Origin: Pelagibacterales bacterium SAG-MED13
GTDB lineage: Bacteria > Pseudomonadota > Alphaproteobacteria > Pelagibacterales > Pelagibacteraceae
DNA length: 47,982 nt
Reading direction: 5' to 3'
NCBI GenBank assembly: GCA_014654165.1
Contig: JACWDK010000009.1
Coordinates: 1 to 47,982, forward strand
Numbering within the stretch: position 1 is the stretch's first letter; every line of letters starts with the position of its first letter. The notes beneath the pieces are model-generated. The model saw only the letters and a program-made list of their open reading frames with translations. It made no database searches and had not been told where the DNA came from. The translations under genes were made by a program, and so were the position numbers. This document shows, piece after piece, positions 566 to 46,241 of the stretch.

Positions 566-991
566 ATGGGCTATAAATTAGAACAAAACAAGAACATGAA
601 ACTAACTATACCATATTATCTGCATAAAGCTGGTGCTGGTTTTCCTTCACCTGCAACTGATTATATCGAAGAAGATATCGATCTAAACATGCATTTAATC
701 AGAAATGTCCCTGCCACCTTCATTATTAGAGTTCAGGGTAAATCAATGGTAGATGTCGGGATCAATGATGGAGATTTATTAGTTGTCGATAAAAGTTTAA
801 AACCAAAAAATTTTTCAACTGTTATTGCAAATGTTCATGATGAACTTGTGGTTAAAACCTTAGTTCAAGAAAGAGATAAAAAATTTCTAACCTCAGGTTC
901 TAAAGAGTTTTCTAATAGAATTTTAATTAACGATGAACAAGATATCTTTATTTGGGGGGTTGTGACTTATGTCATCCATTCAACATACTAG
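566..991 (+). CDS. umuD: UmuD, self-cleaving subunit of translesion polymerase V (S24 peptidase)
   Basis: 141 residues that align almost without gaps to E. coli UmuD. The cleavage region reads A-G-A-G-F-P-S-P-A-T-D-Y, placing the scissile Ala24-Gly25 bond exactly where E. coli has Cys24-Gly25. The catalytic dyad is Ser60 (G-K-S-M-V-D) and Lys97 (V-V-K-T-L), with the same numbering as E. coli, which supports the start at 566; an internal ATG at 596 is possible. RecA-stimulated autocleavage yields UmuD', which joins UmuC as polymerase V. The 3' end overlaps umuC by 23 bases. A LexA-like repeat lies just upstream. Confidence 0.95.
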   Translation: MGYKLEQNKNMKLTIPYYLHKAGAGFPSPATDYIEEDIDLNMHLIRNVPATFIIRVQGKSMVDVGINDGDLLVVDKSLKPKNFSTVIANVHDELVVKTLVQERDKKFLTSGSKEFSNRILINDEQDIFIWGVVTYVIHSTY

Positions 992-2249
992 AAAATTAGC
1001 TTTGGTTGATTGTAATTCTTTTTATGTTTCTTGTGAGAGATTATTCAATCCTAAAATAAGAAGAAAGCCTGTTGTTGTATTATCCAATAATGATGGTTGT
1101 ATTATATCAAGATCAAATGAAGCAAAAGCTTTGGGAATTAAAATGGGTGAACCTTATTTTAAAGCTAAAGATATCATTGTTAAAAATAAAGTTGAGGTCT
1201 TTTCTTCAAATTATTCTTTATATGGAGACTTATCTAGAAGAGTAATGAGAACACTTAAAAGGTTTAACTCAGAAATAGAGGTTTATTCAATTGATGAGGC
1301 TTTTTTAGATTTATCGAATTTTGCTGATAGTGAAGTAGAAAAAGTTGGAAAAGAAATTAGAGGAACTATTTTACAGTGGACCGGTATTCCGACTAGTATT
1401 GGTATTGCTAAAACAAAAACTTTGAGCAAAATTGCAAATCATATTGCAAAAAAGAAACAATCAGGTGTTACTAGTTTAATTGGTATAGAAAATTTAGATC
1501 CTATTCTCGAAAAAATTGAAATTAATGACGTATGGGGTGTTGGTAGACAGCTTACAAAGTTTTATCAAAAGAATGGAATTTATAATGCTAAACAACTTAA
1601 AAATAAATCTAATACGTGGATCAAAAAATCTTCTAATGTTTTGGGTTCAAGAACTGCAATGGAATTAAGAGGTATACCATGTATCAATTTAGAAACTACA
1701 CAAACAAAAAGAAAAAGTTGCGTTGTTTCAAGATCTTTTGGGAAAAGAATTGAAAAATTTCAAGAATTAAAAGAAGCAGTTGCAAATTATTGTTTAAACG
1801 CGTCTGAAAAAATTAGGTCAGAGTCTTTAGTTACAAAAGCTATTACCGTATTTGTTAGAACTAGCCCTTTTCAAAGAAACTTTAGTTATTATTCAAATGC
1901 AGAAACAATCGACTTCCCAATAGCAACAAACAATAGCATTGAAATTGTTAAGACTGCAATTAATATTTTAGAAAAGATTTTTAAAAATGGTTACCAATAT
2001 CAAAAAGCAGGTGTCATGCTTACAGGATTACATAATGATGATGGTAGAAAAAATTTATTTTCATCTGAAAAAGATGAAAAGATAAATAATTTAATGAGAT
2101 CAATTGATAATACTAATTATAGATACGGAAGATCAACTTTAAGTCTTGCTAGTGCAGGTGTGCAAAAAAAATGGAATATGAGAAGGCAATACTCTTCTAA
2201 AATAGATACTGCTGATTTTTATTGCCTGCCTAAAATAAAAGCTATTTAA
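969..2249 (+). CDS. umuC: UmuC, catalytic Y-family DNA polymerase V subunit
   Basis: 426 residues, the normal UmuC length. The first catalytic aspartate is in L-V-D-C-N-S-F-Y (Asp14) and the second motif is Y-S-I-D-E-A-F-L-D (Asp109, Glu110), both hallmarks of Y-family lesion-bypass polymerases. The palm/fingers signature S-N-N-D-G-C-I-I-S-R is present near residue 39. A helix-hairpin-helix thumb region follows, with a little-finger domain and the UmuC-type C terminus. It overlaps umuD in a different frame, so the two are translated from one message. It enables error-prone synthesis across damaged template, useful under surface-ocean UV. Confidence 0.96.
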   Translation: MSSIQHTRKLALVDCNSFYVSCERLFNPKIRRKPVVVLSNNDGCIISRSNEAKALGIKMGEPYFKAKDIIVKNKVEVFSSNYSLYGDLSRRVMRTLKRFNSEIEVYSIDEAFLDLSNFADSEVEKVGKEIRGTILQWTGIPTSIGIAKTKTLSKIANHIAKKKQSGVTSLIGIENLDPILEKIEINDVWGVGRQLTKFYQKNGIYNAKQLKNKSNTWIKKSSNVLGSRTAMELRGIPCINLETTQTKRKSCVVSRSFGKRIEKFQELKEAVANYCLNASEKIRSESLVTKAITVFVRTSPFQRNFSYYSNAETIDFPIATNNSIEIVKTAINILEKIFKNGYQYQKAGVMLTGLHNDDGRKNLFSSEKDEKINNLMRSIDNTNYRYGRSTLSLASAGVQKKWNMRRQYSSKIDTADFYCLPKIKAI

Positions 2250-39785: not shown

Positions 39786-40265
39786 TTAATTAGCTTTGAC
39801 TGTAACAGATCTTCTGTTTTTCGACCAAGCTAGAGGATTAGATCCAGAGTCTACAGGTCTTTCTTTACCATAACTTAAAACTGAAATTCTATCTGAAGAA
39901 ATTCCATACGTCATTAAGTAATCTTTTGCAGCATTTGCTCTTCTTTCACCTAATGCTAAGTTATATTCTCTAGTACCCCTTTCATCTGCATGTCCTTCTA
40001 AAACAACTGTTATATTAGAATTTTTTCTTAGCCACGCAGCTTGTTTACGTAAAGTTTCTCTTGAAGCTGTAGTTAATACAGACTCATTAGTTGCGAAAAA
40101 TACTCTATCTGGAACTCCAGATGCTAAATATTCTATTGTATCAGTTCCAGTGTAAACATCTCCTTGCATTTGCCCAGTAGATACTTTCTGTGTAGCACAC
40201 GCACTAAGCACTAAACATGCTGCCAATGCTAGTAAGACATTTTTTAGAATTTTGTCTAATTTCAT
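39786..40265 (-). CDS. pal: Peptidoglycan-associated lipoprotein Pal
   Basis: 159 residues from the ATG at 40263-40265, chosen because AAGGAG lies 5 bases upstream (40271-40276). Lipobox L-V-L-S-A-C sets the acylated cysteine near residue 22. The OmpA-like domain contains L-E-G-H-A-D-E-R-G-T-R-E-Y-N-L-A-L-G-E-R-R-A near 95-116, which binds peptidoglycan. It anchors the outer membrane to the wall and to TolB. Confidence 0.95.
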   Translation of the reverse strand: MKLDKILKNVLLALAACLVLSACATQKVSTGQMQGDVYTGTDTIEYLASGVPDRVFFATNESVLTTASRETLRKQAAWLRKNSNITVVLEGHADERGTREYNLALGERRANAAKDYLMTYGISSDRISVLSYGKERPVDSGSNPLAWSKNRRSVTVKAN

Positions 40266-40351
40266 TATTGCTCCTTCGCTCAATAGTTCAAAATCTTAGT
40301 TTTTCACAACTAGATAGATGTTTCAAGTCTAAAAATCAAGTTAATATATGG

Positions 40352-41698
40352 TTAATTACTTAATAATGATGACCATGATGGGTCTGATCCATCAGTTGGT
40401 GTTTTAACTAATCTCTCATTGTAGCCTGTTAAGTCAATAGACCACAATTTAGCTGAAAAACCATCTCCATTTGCATCTGTTTTAGTTTCTCTATAAAATA
40501 TTAAAACCCTCCCATTAGGAGACCAAGAGGGAGCTTCTTGATAAAAATTTTCTGTCAATAATCTCTCTCCACTTCCATCAGTTCTCATAACTCCAATATA
40601 AAATTTGCCTTTATGTAGTTTTGTAAAAGCAATTAAGTCTCCTCTTGGTGACCAATTTGGAGTTCCGTATATTCCTTTTCCAAAAGAAATTCTTTTAACA
40701 TTGCTACCATCACTATTCATGATATAAATTTGTTGATAGCCACTTCTATCAGAATTAAACGAAATAAATTTTCCATCTGGTGAGTAAGAAGGTGAAGTAT
40801 CAATTGAGGGATGATTAGTAATTTTTTCTACTATTCTATTTTCAAGATCCATCGTATATATTTCAGAATTACCATCTTTTGCAAAACTCATAATTATTTT
40901 TTTTCCATCTGGAGAAAATCTTGGTGCAAAAGTCATTCCAGGAAAGTCTCCCACAACTTCTTGCGTGCCTGTTTCTATATCTAAAAGATAAACTCTTGGT
41001 AAATTTCTAAAATACGAAAGGTATGTTACCATTTGACTTGTTGGATTGAATCTAGGAGTTAGTACTAGTTCATTACCTAAAGTTAAAAATTTATTATTTG
41101 CACCATCTTGATCCATTATTGCTAATTTCTTAATTCTTTTAGTTTTTGGACCTTCTTCAGCAACATAAATAATTCTTGTATCAAAATAACCCTTTTCGCC
41201 TGTCAATCTTTCGTAAACTTTGTCAGTGATAATATGGCCAACTCTCCGCCAGTTATTTGGTACCGTTGTAAATGCTAATGCCATCATTTCTTTTCCTGCT
41301 AGAATATCCCATAATCTAAATTCTACTCTTAATTTTTCATCTTTAAAAGTTACCTTCCCTGTAATAAGTGCTTGAGCTTTAATCAAATTCCAATCTTCAA
41401 AACGAGGTTTTAAGTTTGCAATATCAGGAGCTTGTAAAAAAGCATTCTTATCTAGAGGGTTAAATAAACCTGAGGTTTTTAAGTTATTTTCTACTATGAT
41501 TGATATTTCTGAACCTAGATTGTCTTTTTGTAAAATTTTTTCAAAATTTTTTCTTGAATTTTCATCAATAGACAAAGGTGATACAGCTATTGGTAATGGA
41601 TTTAGATTACCTCTTGTAATATCAACTTCAATTAAAGCGAAAGATTTAAAAGGTATAAATAATAGTAATATATTAATAAATAAAAATTTTTTCATCAT
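40352..41698 (-). CDS. tolB: Tol-Pal translocation protein TolB
   Basis: 448 residues: signal peptide (1-21, ending S-F-A), an N-terminal alpha/beta domain, and a C-terminal six-bladed beta-propeller with repeated S-P-D-G-K and S-x-D-R-S-G blades (e.g. [22 protein letters not shown]). It is periplasmic and contacts Pal and TolA. It begins 6 bases after tolA; a 68-86 base gap precedes pal. Confidence 0.95.
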
Positions 41699-41704
41699 TA
41701 TGTT

Positions 41705-42514
41705 TTATCCCTCTAACATTTCCCTTGCATCAAAATTTAATTGTAATTCTTTCCATCTGTCATATCCAGTACTAGGAACTCTTAATGGTTGGCATAATTT
41801 AACTGCTCTAAGAGCACTTTCCGCTAAAACTTTATAGAAACCTTGACCAGGTTTATTCATTCTAGCATGATCTAAAATTTCTGATTTAATTACTGAACCA
41901 TCAGGTTTTAGTTGCAATTTAATTCTCACTAATAGATTTTCATTGTAAGGTAAACCTAAAGGAATGCTCCAGCATCCAAATATCTGTGCTTTTAAAGCAT
42001 CTTCTTCACTTAAAGATAAACCAGTATTTTCAAGATTTTTTTGTTGATCTTGGGTAACCTTGTCTGTTTTATTTATTGTTTCCGCATTTTCAATCTTAGA
42101 CTTGTCAATTAAGGCTGCTATATTATTTGGATCAAATAATTCTTTTTTTTCAAACTCAGAAACTTGTTTTACTTCGTTATCTATTTTTTCTGGATTTTGT
42201 TTATCTTCTTTTATTTTTTCAACTTTTTTAACTTTATCTTCAGGCATAGGAACTGAGTCTGGCTTAACCTTTTTAACTTTTTTAGGTGGTGCCTGTTCAG
42301 ATACAAGTTTTTTTTCTTTTTCTTTTATCTTTTCAATAGTTTTTTTTGCTTTTGGTGCAAAAGGGATGTTTGTTTTATCAGTAATTTGTATCAATTCTAC
42401 AGATACTATGGGAGGAAGATCTATAGGTTTTTTAGACAAAAATGGTAAACTCATAGCTGTAATCATAATTAATACCAAATGCAAAACAGAAGAGATAATT
42501 ATACTTCTATTCAC
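41705..42514 (-). CDS. tolA: TolA/TonB-like envelope-spanning protein
   Basis: 269 residues: one N-terminal membrane helix (about 4-24), a Lys/Glu/Pro-rich rod (about 50-150, with P-P-K-K-V-K-K-V-K-P), and a C-terminal globular domain (about 180-269) carrying the TolA/TonB-like pattern V-R-I-K-L-Q-L-K-P-D-G-S-V. It spans the periplasm between TolQR and TolB/Pal. It starts 7 bases after tolR. Confidence 0.9.
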   Translation of the reverse strand: MNRSIIISSVLHLVLIMITAMSLPFLSKKPIDLPPIVSVELIQITDKTNIPFAPKAKKTIEKIKEKEKKLVSEQAPPKKVKKVKPDSVPMPEDKVKKVEKIKEDKQNPEKIDNEVKQVSEFEKKELFDPNNIAALIDKSKIENAETINKTDKVTQDQQKNLENTGLSLSEEDALKAQIFGCWSIPLGLPYNENLLVRIKLQLKPDGSVIKSEILDHARMNKPGQGFYKVLAESALRAVKLCQPLRVPSTGYDRWKELQLNFDAREMLEG

Positions 42515-42521
42515 TTTAAGT

Positions 42522-42938
42522 TTACCTTTCCTTATAAGGCTCAGATATAAGTGCCACCTTTGTAAAGCCTGATCCAGATAGTAAACCCATAATTTCTAAA
42601 ACTCTTCCATAATTAATTGTTTTATCTCCCCTTACATATATTCTAGTATCTGTTCTATTTTTTGAAACTGCTAAAACTTTTGCAATAATTTTTTCATATT
42701 CAACTTTTGACTCTTGAATAAAAATCTCACCTTTAGAGTTTATCGTCAAGGTCAAAGGTTCTTGCTCTTCTGGTAAAGAGTCTGCTGAACTTTCTGGTAA
42801 ATCAACTTGAACTCCAACGGTTAACAGAGGAGCAGTAACCATAAAAATAATTAATAATACTAACATTACATCAACAAACGGTGTAACATTAATTTCGCTC
42901 ATAGGTTCTTTAGATGAACGATTAAATTTAAAAGCCAT
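42522..42938 (-). CDS. tolR: TolR proton-channel subunit (ExbD family)
   Basis: 138 residues with the single membrane helix V-D-V-M-L-V-L-L-I-I-F-M near 23-35, which includes the proton-relay aspartate (Asp24), preceded by I-N-V-T-P-F. The periplasmic domain ends in the usual G-D-K-T-I-N-Y-G-R-V motif. It works with TolQ to convert proton motive force into TolA movement. It abuts tolQ. Confidence 0.95.
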   Translation of the reverse strand: MAFKFNRSSKEPMSEINVTPFVDVMLVLLIIFMVTAPLLTVGVQVDLPESSADSLPEEQEPLTLTINSKGEIFIQESKVEYEKIIAKVLAVSKNRTDTRIYVRGDKTINYGRVLEIMGLLSGSGFTKVALISEPYKER

Positions 42939-42939
42939 T

Positions 42940-43614
42940 TTAAATAATTGTTAAAAATCTTTTTGAAAAATTTTCTAATTTTTGAGAATATTTAATAGAG
43001 TCGTTGTTAAATTTATTATAAGCTATAACAGCTGGTATTGCTGCTAGTAAGCCTAAAGCAGTTGCAAATAATGCCTCAGCAATTCCTGGTGCAACAATTG
43101 CTAGACTTGTGTTTCGAGAAATTGCAATAGATTGAAAAGAATTCATAATACCCCAAACAGTTCCAAATAATCCTATGAATGGTGCAGTAGAACCAACTGT
43201 AGCTAGAAATGTAAAACCTTTACTAATTTTATTCATTTGTTTTTCAATCCCTGTTTCCAACATTGTAGTCATTTTATTATGTAAATCTGTTTTAGATTTT
43301 CTCTTTAGTAAATTTTGCATTGCATCTTTAAATACAAGAGCCATCGGATCATTAATATTAGTTGGTAAATTATTATAAAATGACTCTGCAGATTTCGAGT
43401 TCCAAAACTTTGTTTCAAATTCCTCTGAAGTTTCATTAATCTTTTTGAACAATCTGTATTTTTCAATTATTACTGCCCACGAATAAATAGAGCACGCTAT
43501 TAAAAGAACAATTACCGTTTTAACTATAATATCTGCTCTAAAAAATAAATTTATTAAAGAAAAATCTGCACTAGATGCAAGGCCTATAGCTTGAGATGAA
43601 ATGTCAGCTTCCAT
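42940..43614 (-). CDS. tolQ: TolQ proton-channel subunit (MotA/TolQ/ExbB family)
   Basis: 224 residues with three membrane helices: near 30-50, and a conserved helical pair near 135-200 with A-T-V-G-S-T-A-P-F-I-G-L-F-G-T-V-W-G and G-I-A-E-A-L-F-A-T-A-L-G-L. It energises Tol-Pal. It is first of the tolQRAB-pal unit and is preceded by ruvC 51 bases away, with no ybgC between. Confidence 0.96.
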   Translation of the reverse strand: MEADISSQAIGLASSADFSLINLFFRADIIVKTVIVLLIACSIYSWAVIIEKYRLFKKINETSEEFETKFWNSKSAESFYNNLPTNINDPMALVFKDAMQNLLKRKSKTDLHNKMTTMLETGIEKQMNKISKGFTFLATVGSTAPFIGLFGTVWGIMNSFQSIAISRNTSLAIVAPGIAEALFATALGLLAAIPAVIAYNKFNNDSIKYSQKLENFSKRFLTII

Positions 43615-43665
43615 AAAGTCTTCTCACACTTAAATGTGTCATGATTTTGTCTTAATAAATTAGAT

Positions 43666-44160
43666 TTATTGCTCAATTTTGTAAGTTTCGTAATAAAAAC
43701 TCGCAATTAAAATAGCATCAGCTTTATTCGAATCTTTTTTTTTTGATAATTGAGATGAAAAATAAGGAAATATTTCAATAGCTCTTGTTCTACTAGCATC
43801 TTTTTCTGAATTTATTAAGTTGAAGTATTTTTTCCATTTAGCTGGTCTGACAAAATACATGGATAATTGCATTGCGGAACAAATACCTTTTAAAATCCCA
43901 AAAGATTGTCCAAAATTAAACATACTTGTAACACCCTGACCTGGCATTGCTGAAACTTGTTCTATTATAACTTTTATATTTTTTTTTTCACTTTTATGAA
44001 TTCTTTTTAAAATTTCATTATAAATTTGTGAACCATTCACCTGTCTTTTGTTCTTTTTTCCTTCAGTCATTGTGGGCATCTCAATAACATCAATAATTTT
44101 ACCATCATCTAAAAAACAAATTGATCCGGATATACCTGGGTCTATACCAATAATTAACAT
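43666..44160 (-). CDS. ruvC: RuvC-family Holliday-junction endonuclease, phage-like subtype
   Basis: 164 residues with an RNase H-like fold: Asp7 in G-I-D-P-G, Glu67 in I-I-E-Q-V, and C-terminal acids in K-K-D-S-N-K-A-D-A (Asp143, Asp148). The central segment M-P-G-Q-G-V-T-S-M-F-N-F-G and the later W-K-K-Y-F and K-D-A-S-R-T-R-A stretches are what I know from the phage/mobile branch of RuvC-like nucleases, not from E. coli RuvC. It sits next to yebC, where ruvC usually stands, but ruvA and ruvB are not nearby. Junction resolution is likely; dependence on RuvAB is uncertain. Confidence 0.8.
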   Translation of the reverse strand: MLIIGIDPGISGSICFLDDGKIIDVIEMPTMTEGKKNKRQVNGSQIYNEILKRIHKSEKKNIKVIIEQVSAMPGQGVTSMFNFGQSFGILKGICSAMQLSMYFVRPAKWKKYFNLINSEKDASRTRAIEIFPYFSSQLSKKKDSNKADAILIASFYYETYKIEQ

Positions 44161-44163
44161 ATA

Positions 44164-44886
44164 TTAATTTGAAAACTTAACATTTGAATAAATATTCTGT
44201 ATATCATCATCTTCTTCTAATGTTTCAAAAAAATTAATCAAATCCACTTTTTTTTCATTAGGTATCTGAACGCTAGTAAGTGGAATCCACTCAATCTCTG
44301 TAGATATAAAATTAGTAATTGATTTTTCTAACTCTTTTTTAACATTATAAATCTCATTCATTTGACATTGAACTTCATGAAAATCTTCATTAGATTTACA
44401 CTCCTCTGCACCTGCTTCTATAGCTAATGCAAAAATATCTTCTTCTGAAATTTCATTTTTATCGATTTTGATTAATCCTAATTGAGAAAAATTATGAGAT
44501 GCTGAGCCTTGTGTGCCCAGACTACCTCCTGCTTTTTGAAAAATAGTTCTTATATTAGATGCTGTCCTATTTTTGTTATCAGTTAAAGCTTCTACAATTA
44601 TTGCGACTTTTTCAGGTCCAAAACCTTCGTACCTTAAATTTTCAAAATTTGACTCTGTACTAATAGAAGATTTATTGATAGCTCGTTCGATATTATCTTT
44701 AGGCATATTAGCAGATCTTGCGGCTTGAATAGCTGAACGAAGTCTTGGATTCATTGCAGGATCTTTATCACCTAATTTTGCCGCAATAGTAATTTCTTTA
44801 GATATTTTTGAAAAAATTTTAGACCTTTGCTTATCTGCTTTACCTTTTTTATGTTTTATTCCTGCCCAATGAGAATGTCCTGCCAT
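44164..44886 (-). CDS. yebC: YebC/TACO1-family protein
   Basis: 240 residues with the invariant N terminus A-G-H-S-H-W-A-G-I-K-H-K-K-G and K-D-x-A-M-N-P-R-L-R near 50. YebC-family proteins have been described as transcription regulators and, more recently, as factors that relieve ribosome stalling at proline runs. The next gene, ruvC, begins three bases after its stop, the usual neighbour. Confidence 0.95.
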   Translation of the reverse strand: MAGHSHWAGIKHKKGKADKQRSKIFSKISKEITIAAKLGDKDPAMNPRLRSAIQAARSANMPKDNIERAINKSSISTESNFENLRYEGFGPEKVAIIVEALTDNKNRTASNIRTIFQKAGGSLGTQGSASHNFSQLGLIKIDKNEISEEDIFALAIEAGAEECKSNEDFHEVQCQMNEIYNVKKELEKSITNFISTEIEWIPLTSVQIPNEKKVDLINFFETLEEDDDIQNIYSNVKFSN

Positions 44887-44893
44887 AAATTAA

Positions 44894-45700
44894 TTATCTA
44901 TTATTATTTAATTGACCTCCAAAGATATAACTTTCAACTTTATCAGCCAATCCAGTTTCTACATTACAATCTACAATTACCCCACATAAAGTCGCTTCTC
45001 CTTTAGCGGGATAATGTTTGACTGAGTTTTTTTTCATAAACCTATTCAAGGAATTATCTTTATTCATACCTATCACAGAGTCATAATCTCCACACATGCC
45101 TGCATCTGTCTGATAAGCAGTTCCTTTTTTTAGAATTCTAGCATCATTAGTGGGGATATGTGTGTGAGTTCCAATTACCAGAGTAGCTTCACCATCAAAA
45201 TAATGACCTATAGCATTTTTTTCACTAGTGATCTCTCCATGGAAGTCAACAATTAAAAAATCATAATCCTTCTTCAATTTAAATGACTGCAAAAATTTTT
45301 CTGAGATTTTGAAAACATCATCACATTTTTTCATAAAAACATTTCCCATTAAATTAAGTACACCTATTTTTATGTTATGTTTTGTTGGGTATATTTCAAA
45401 TCCTCTACCAGGTGATGGTTCAAACAAATTTTTTGGTCTTAACAATCTATTATCTTGATCAATAAAATTCATTATATCTTTTTGATCCCAAATATGATTT
45501 CCTGTAGTAATAACATTTACACCACAGTTAAAAAAATCATAACAAATTTCTTTTGTTAAACCAACTCCAGACTCATCCGCATTTTCTCCATTTAAAATTA
45601 CAAAATCAATTTTATTTTTTTTTATTTGATCTAAAAGACTATTCATTATTTGAGAGCAGCCCGATATTCCAACAACATCTCCTAAAAATAATATTCTCAT
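44894..45700 (-). CDS. ymdB: YmdB-family metallophosphoesterase (TIGR00282 type)
   Basis: 268 residues. It starts R-I-L-F-L-G-D-V-V-G, the metal-binding first motif; N-G-E-N-A-D-E-S-G near 39, T-G-N-H-I-W-D near 67, and D-F-H-G-E near 150 with G-T-H-T-H-I-P-T near 177 complete the dinuclear metal site. Relatives hydrolyse 2',3'-cyclic nucleotides. The lack of a signal places it in the cytoplasm. It lies between fau and yebC. Confidence 0.9.
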   Translation of the reverse strand: MRILFLGDVVGISGCSQIMNSLLDQIKKNKIDFVILNGENADESGVGLTKEICYDFFNCGVNVITTGNHIWDQKDIMNFIDQDNRLLRPKNLFEPSPGRGFEIYPTKHNIKIGVLNLMGNVFMKKCDDVFKISEKFLQSFKLKKDYDFLIVDFHGEITSEKNAIGHYFDGEATLVIGTHTHIPTNDARILKKGTAYQTDAGMCGDYDSVIGMNKDNSLNRFMKKNSVKHYPAKGEATLCGVIVDCNVETGLADKVESYIFGGQLNNNR

Positions 45701-45707
45701 TTTTAAT

Positions 45708-46241
45708 CTATTCCTCTGTAATTATATAATCTAGCTTAATATCATATTTATTAGTTGGTATTTTTTTTACTCTTTGGTACGAAAAAGCTAACCCAATAGT
45801 AATTACTTTTTTTCTTTTTTTAATTTTCTGAATATATCTATCATAAAAACCACCACCATAACCAATTCTATTAAAATCTTTATCATAAGCTACAAGAGGA
45901 ACTAGTAATATATCTGGATATTTTAATTCATTTGAAACTGGCTCTGGAATTCCATATTTGTTTATATTAAGGGGATCTTTACTAGACCAATTAAAAAAAT
46001 CCATTTTATTATTTTTTTTTATTTTTGGTAAACAAATCTGATAATTTTTTTTTTCAAATTTTTTTAAAATTTGTACTCCATCGATTTCATAGTTATATGG
46101 ATAATAGCCACCCACTACTTTAGATTTAATTTTTTTTTTTTTTAAAATATTTAAGACTCTTTTAAAATTTATAGAAAAATTTTTGTATATTTTACTTTTC
46201 CTTAAAATTAATATTTTTTGTCTAATTTCTGATTTATTCAC
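45708..46241 (-). CDS. fau: 5-formyltetrahydrofolate cyclo-ligase
   Basis: 177 residues with the hallmark G-Y-G-G-G-F-Y-D-R-Y near residue 129 and P-L-V-A-Y-D near 115. It returns 5-formyl-THF to 5,10-methenyl-THF. It directly follows zapA (9 bases), as in many proteobacteria, but with no room for a 6S RNA gene between them. Confidence 0.9.
   Translation of the reverse strand: MNKSEIRQKILILRKSKIYKNFSINFKRVLNILKKKKIKSKVVGGYYPYNYEIDGVQILKKFEKKNYQICLPKIKKNNKMDFFNWSSKDPLNINKYGIPEPVSNELKYPDILLVPLVAYDKDFNRIGYGGGFYDRYIQKIKKRKKVITIGLAFSYQRVKKIPTNKYDIKLDYIITEE

Follow-up and report, generated by a model that had tools for sequence, protein, structure and literature searches.

A putative phage-type Holliday junction resolvase occupies the ruv position of SAR11 bacteria that lack RuvABC

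RuvABC is the standard bacterial machine for completing DNA recombination, and the question raised by the locus described here is which enzyme resolves Holliday junctions in a SAR11 cell that holds a single gene where these would be expected. The window, meaning the whole stretch of 47,982 nucleotides that was analysed (G+C 29%), comes from a 1.01-Mb genome (G000) that is 86% complete and in 49 contigs. Between yebC and tolQ lies one open reading frame (Table 1), and none of ruvA, ruvB and ybgC fits between this frame and tolQ. The original prediction was that ruvA, ruvB and ybgC were missing from this site and that a phage-like RuvC had replaced the cellular one in place. On re-reading of the ORFs its coordinates for the frame and its spacing of 51 bases to tolQ are correct, and there is indeed no room for the three genes. 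The reading preferred here, with a probability of roughly 0.83, is that the gene encodes the SAR11 cell's Holliday junction resolvase, of the PHROG 1770/MOC1 branch, in place of the lost ruvC-ruvA-ruvB-ybgC. The gap of 3 bp to yebC indicates that the two genes share an operon. Elsewhere in the window (566-2246, plus strand), adjoining ORFs resemble UmuD and UmuC (DNA polymerase V), judged from the sequence alone; such a pair would be an error-prone repair operon retained in a streamlined genome without RuvABC.

Table 1. Features of the ruv position and its surroundings in the window.
Feature	Position	Strand	Basis
pal	39786..40283	-	ORF and gene order; assigned by sequence reading
tolB	40352..41698	-	ORF and gene order; assigned by sequence reading
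tolA	41705..42514	-	ORF and gene order; assigned by sequence reading
tolR	42522..42938	-	ORF and gene order; assigned by sequence reading
tolQ, right landmark	42940..43614	-	PF01618 5e-37
Resolvase-tolQ interval, 51 bp; holds ruvA-ruvB-ybgC in outgroups	43615..43665	.	
MOC1/phage-RuvC-type putative Holliday junction resolvase, 164 aa, ATG start	43666..44160	-	PHROG, fold, residue map
Gap between yebC stop and resolvase ATG, 3 bp	44161..44163	.	
yebC, left landmark of the ancestral ruv locus	44164..44886	-	PF01709 8.8e-53, PF20772 1.6e-31
YmdB-like metallophosphoesterase, upstream landmark, kept in outgroups too	44894..45700	-	Sequence reading
5-formyltetrahydrofolate cyclo-ligase-like (5FCL), upstream landmark, kept in outgroups too	45708..46241	-	Sequence reading

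The ancestral arrangement can be read from outgroup alphaproteobacteria. Three of these (G161, G153 and G307) display 5FCL-ymdB-yebC-ruvC-ruvA-ruvB-ybgC-tolQ-tolR-tolA-tolB, which from yebC to tolB is the alphaproteobacterial order expected beforehand. SAR11 thus differs in precisely one respect, a single gene in place of ruvC-ruvA-ruvB-ybgC. Since the outgroups keep yebC-ruvC-ruvA-ruvB-ybgC-tolQ, an exchange at the site itself is the most economical reading. Comparison of the yebC-tolQ interval gives yebC-resolvase-tolQ in 57 of 64 loci and yebC-PDDEXK-tolQ, with a different gene, in 78 of 83 loci of the sister family AG-422-B15, while the outgroups have the full ruv set. In one further outgroup (G163:C2; L221, L222) yebC and ruvC stand together and ruvA-ruvB lies about 280 kb off, which shows that the ruv genes may be separated in alphaproteobacteria other than SAR11.

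Searched against Pfam, the protein encoded in the window gives nothing above cut-off, and it reaches 14.4 bits with the NCBIfam RuvC equivalog, for which the cut-off is 163. In a PHROGs search residues 1-161 match positions 4-152 of the 158 in phrog_1770, 'Holliday junction resolvase', with an E value of 1.1e-37; similarity to the cellular RuvC profile is weak (E 2.5e-4, probability 43%). Plant chloroplast MOC1 proteins are the only strong sequence relatives among solved structures (1.7e-14 with the single sequence, 2.2e-18 with the SAR11 profile), and the best RuvC structure entry by sequence is that of phage 67RuvC (0.29 and 0.16, respectively). An AlphaFold2 model, using the window protein and 24 viral relatives as input (pLDDT 94, pTM 0.90), matches MOC1-junction complexes with Z 23.3 (rmsd 2.0 over 157 residues, TM 0.85), cellular RuvC with Z 17.2 and phage bIL67 RuvC (67RuvC) with Z 16. 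As judged from these matches, the window protein is a member of the phage PHROG 1770 family and is neither a cellular RuvC nor a strict MOC1. It is predicted from the model that it would work like MOC1 and phage RuvC, and the proposed resolvase step is well supported by the modelled structure.

Residues were mapped on an alignment that joins the SAR11 proteins to MOC1 and to viral and cellular RuvC, including 33 SAR11 and 33 viral rows, with MOC1 numbering taken from PMC7078210 and PMC11183143. The predicted active site consists of D7, E67, K120, D143 and D148 (MOC1 D115/116, E174/175, K229, H/D253 and E257/258, respectively) and is invariant in 33/33 SAR11 rows; the RuvC-type D-E-K-D site (D7, E67, K120, D148) is contained in it. 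The MOC1 catalytic set, D-P-D (D116, D118), E175 and E258, is incomplete, in that D7, E67 and D148 are present and Gly9 stands at the second Asp, D118, as Gly likewise does in RuvC and in phages. D118 is essential in NtMOC1 (PMC7078210), so the chemistry may differ in detail. In the predicted base-recognition loop, E67-QVSAMPGQG, the MOC1 residues Y/F180 and D183 are replaced by Met72 and Gln75, neither of which varies in SAR11 or across the 33 viral rows, and Met72 stands where MOC1 and RuvC have their intercalating aromatic residue. W109 and R124 are common to MOC1 and phages and are not found in cellular RuvC. The same distribution holds for the KDASR segment that had been picked out as phage-like. 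The cellular RuvC motifs TGWG and GHA.K are absent from the window protein, and N145 is SAR11-specific with respect to the PHROG 1770 phage proteins.

Homologues of the resolvase occur, as a rule in single copy, in 126 of 147 genomes of Pelagibacteraceae (the GTDB family). In an order-wide search, in which the hits were split by family from the result table, the gene was found in single copy in 96 of the 103 near-complete Pelagibacteraceae genomes and in none of AG-422-B15. In the seven near-complete exceptions yebC is either not there or interrupted by the end of a contig, which indicates gaps, and true absence of the resolvase from these genomes was rejected on this ground. Median dN/dS among relatives is 0.094 for the resolvase, 0.111 for yebC and 0.057 for tolQ; the resolvase is under strong purifying selection. 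A frameshifted copy in one genome (G524:C10, L225) was considered as a natural pseudogene and rejected, the N-terminus of the adjacent tolQ being equally broken by a frameshift, and is probably an assembly or sequencing error.

The yebC-tolQ interval of the sister family, which is called AG-422-B15 by inference from one genome among the PDDEXK loci, holds a gene for a protein of about 126 aa. This protein lies above the PF24608 (PDDEXK_15) cut-off of 27 with 32.7 and 32.0 bits, falls below the 21.1 gathering score of Hjc (PF01870) with 14.5 and 17.3 bits, and matches phrog_244 (RusA-like Holliday junction resolvase) at 2e-20. It carries the motif KGDGYEREL...GGSDL...VEAKR, and the eight best fold rows for its model (pLDDT 84) are archaeal Hjc/Hje, with modest Z of 6.2-7.3 and a Foldseek value of 0.016. 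A role as resolvase is presumed. The gene is present in 43 of 157 genomes of the order, all of them AG-422-B15 and including 12 of 12 near-complete ones, and a scan of GTDB species genomes returned 43 loci, all in cells named as Pelagibacteraceae or Pelagibacterales, AG-422-B15 included. It is never found together with the MOC1-type resolvase in one genome. Homology of the two occupants was rejected (hhalign probability 0.2%). Viral relatives of the PDDEXK protein show 46-58% identity, and a named relative, in Roseobacter phage CRP-810, shows 53%. One operon slot is occupied in sister families by two putative phage-type resolvases that are non-homologous by sequence comparison, both without RuvAB. 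That the slot of AG-422-B15 is filled by an unrelated resolvase suggests that selection keeps a stand-alone resolvase and not the RuvABC complex. It is quite likely, if somewhat less so than the main reading, that yebC-tolQ is a resolvase slot into which two unrelated phage resolvases were installed separately as sole substitutes for RuvC, after or with the loss of RuvAB.

These data also bear on a different use of the gene. A retained phage nuclease could be engaged in fork or flap debranching, anti-phage activity or plasmid processing, with junctions handled by RecG and YqgF or by replication. Promiscuity towards branched DNA substrates is frequent among phage resolvases (PMC3864405), and the loss of RecBCD, RecF and MutSL describes a recombination system that has been remodelled (PMC12374537), but another job is unlikely for a gene that is fixed as a single copy in the exact ruv slot family-wide, is under selection as strong as that on yebC and has a RuvC/MOC1-type active site. 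Moreover, the sister family swapped in another class of resolvase rather than losing the function.

Relatives of the window protein are abundant in viruses, with at least 588 confirmed loci and a best identity of 47% among the matches listed. Identity to viral proteins is 40-47%, with AMPGQGV[TS]SMF as a common motif. The MPGQGVTSMF motif named in the original prediction is therefore real, although the viral loci that share it were themselves found through it. Likewise, the 33 sampled viral rows, found through the loop, match SAR11 at most positions of the loop and of W...KDxSR...KKD/H..AD/E. Within the viral relatives at L138-L217 the loop AMPGQGV[TS]SMF is near-invariant. Pfam RuvC matches only 8 of 25 members and not the window protein, and standard annotation will thus overlook many of the viral relatives. 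Cellular relatives are rare outside Pelagibacteraceae (3 of 289 genomes of the class and 3 of 397 of the phylum). One of these genomes, that of an alphaproteobacterium with intact RuvABC, has a phage-type copy that scores 135 bits with the SAR11 profile (G430:C142, L226), which indicates that RuvABC and a phage-type resolvase can coexist, perhaps via a prophage.

All 33 SAR11 rows fall into a single clade of the tree (99/96) among the viral rows, and cellular RuvC is split off by a 100/100 branch of about 8 changes per column. With its root unfixed, the tree groups the protein with phage proteins and MOC1 and not inside alphaproteobacterial RuvC; the branch to cellular RuvC is so long, however, that a placement of cellular RuvC next to SAR11 is not rejected in an AU test (p 0.385). 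The root and the AU result mean that the tree fails as proof of phage origin. The earlier assignment of the protein to a phage or mobile branch of RuvC agrees with the PHROG 1770 match and with this branch, and replacement of cellular RuvC in place finds support in the branch together with the outgroup order. A phage origin of the SAR11 resolvase is suggested by its distribution, the shared motifs and the parallel case in the sister family. Very improbable, by comparison, is vertical descent, in which a fast-evolving alphaproteobacterial RuvC, once deprived of RuvAB, would have come to resemble the phage form. The slot is that of ruvC, the AU result allows a grouping with cellular RuvC and some profile similarity to it exists, yet the viral identity and shared loop motif stand against some 14 bits to NCBIfam RuvC, TGWG and GHA.K are missing, the branch to cellular RuvC is long and fully supported, and in AG-422-B15 the enzyme that took this slot is certainly of another, non-homologous kind.

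The loss of RuvABC extends beyond the locus. RuvB (TIGR00635, cut-off 299 bits) was found in 0 of 147 Pelagibacteraceae genomes, of which 53 are at least 90% complete and several consist of one contig, and in 0 of 13 AG-422-B15 genomes. G000 gives weak AAA+ matches alone, the best at 27.6 bits, and the best match in the family is 38 bits; most of these matches fall in ORFs whose lengths (about 420, 550, 640 and 800 aa) are typical of other AAA+ proteins. In five outgroup alphaproteobacteria of similar genome size RuvB reaches 419-467 bits. Profile searches for RuvA and for cellular RuvC (TIGR00228) were each negative in the 20 Pelagibacterales tested, and in G000, and each positive in 5/5 outgroups. 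G000 is itself 86% complete, but the absence of RuvB from all 147 genomes, near-complete and single-contig ones among them, argues that no assembly gap is involved, and a gap was rejected as the reason for the missing ruvAB on the 0 of 53 near-complete genomes. RuvA, RuvB and cellular RuvC are gone from the genome and from the order Pelagibacterales; intact ruvAB, which would have spoken against the original prediction, is found nowhere in either. The RuvABC-less state is ancient and order-wide. That RuvAB persists in a form so diverged that the profiles miss it, or on a stretch lacking from the assembly, is hardly credible: the 49 contigs and the existence of AAA+ matches to the RuvB profile leave some space for it, but not the family-wide zero at cut-off, the size of the matching ORFs, the absence of RuvA in 20/20 and the high scores of the outgroups.

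Under the preferred reading, a dimeric nuclease of RuvC fold would cut four-way junctions alone, by paired nicks at the crossover and without a RuvAB motor. RecG, perhaps with spontaneous or RecA-driven branch migration, would bring junctions to cleavable sequences. RecG is present in 25 of 25 genomes examined (in G000 at C48:37436-39286, 619 bits, a 683-aa frame) and is plausible as the replacement motor for RuvAB; the work could be divided with a further nuclease or motor. Precedents exist for the separate parts. In E. coli delta-ruv strains, phage RusA resolves junctions and releases DNA molecules that are still joined (PMC2716532). Of the RecA-bearing genomes among 117 bacterial species surveyed, all but two have RuvAB, and those two retain RecG (PMC1193525). 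Plant organelles use bacterial-type RECA and RECG (PMC8159992). The RecG profile also detects a second, Mfd-like helicase, whose frame is about 1133-1185 aa long in the five outgroups and only 789-804 aa long in all seven AG-422-B15 genomes (G432-G436, G440 and G441; e.g. G432:C2:177728-178909), where it lies beside recG on the opposite strand. None was found by this search in 13 Pelagibacteraceae, so that one SAR11 family seems to have a shortened Mfd and the other none.

Additional perspective can be gained from known systems. The phages of PHROG 1770, among them epsilon15 (gp24), Planktothrix phage PaV-LD (ORF119L) and Microcystis phage Mwe-JY08, are about 40-47% identical to the SAR11 protein (1e-37) and share the E-x-V-x-AMPGQGV loop, W109, KDxSR and KKD/H...AD/E, whereas the SAR11 gene sits in a fixed chromosomal housekeeping operon, yebC-tolQ, and its product has N145. 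MOC1, the closest solved structure by sequence and fold, has equivalents of W109, K120, R124, D143 and D148 and serves a bacterial-type genome in organelles with RecA and RecG homologues; it differs in being nuclear-encoded and not on a bacterial chromosome, in having D118 instead of Gly, and in having Y/F and D instead of Met72 and Gln75. Cellular RuvC has in common with the SAR11 protein the RNase-H/RuvC fold, the catalytic set of D7, E67, K120 and D148 and the chromosomal slot, but has RuvA and RuvB as partners and TGWG and GHA.K as motifs, where SAR11 has the phage/MOC1-like W109 and KDxSR. Phage bIL67 RuvC, also of RuvC fold, is active without RuvAB in an E. coli ruvABC mutant and alone restores UV resistance of E. 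coli delta-ruvABC (PMC3864405), although it is distant in sequence (E 0.29, 0.16) and a phage gene. RecU of Firmicutes is likewise a non-orthologous replacement of RuvC (PMC1193525), but still works with RuvAB, which SAR11 lacks. The AG-422-B15 slot protein, which has the PDDEXK_15 phage endonucleases and, at modest Z, archaeal Hjc as its nearest families, is unrelated to the window protein in fold and sequence.

Both enzyme families are known, and what is new is that ruvC gave way to them at its own site on two occasions, in an order that has lost RuvAB throughout. No earlier report of resolvase replacement in SAR11 or Pelagibacter was found in the openly readable literature, to which the search was confined. 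A 2025 paper on SAR11 recombination gives losses of RecBCD, RecF and MutS/MutL and leaves Ruv unmentioned (PMC12374537); the present locus adds the missing back end to that repertoire. RuvAB is missing from a whole order of bacteria that are free-living and recombine heavily, and SAR11 are the most abundant bacteria of the ocean. Two sister families with two unrelated phage-type enzymes at one operon position form a natural replicate, from which it may be asked what minimum is needed for resolving recombination. The system would be a free-living bacterial parallel to that of MOC1 in chloroplasts, and phages are indicated as donors of core genes for chromosome maintenance. If the preferred reading is true, abundant ocean cells finish recombination with stand-alone phage enzymes and RecG, and the remodelled back end could contribute to the unusually promiscuous recombination of SAR11.
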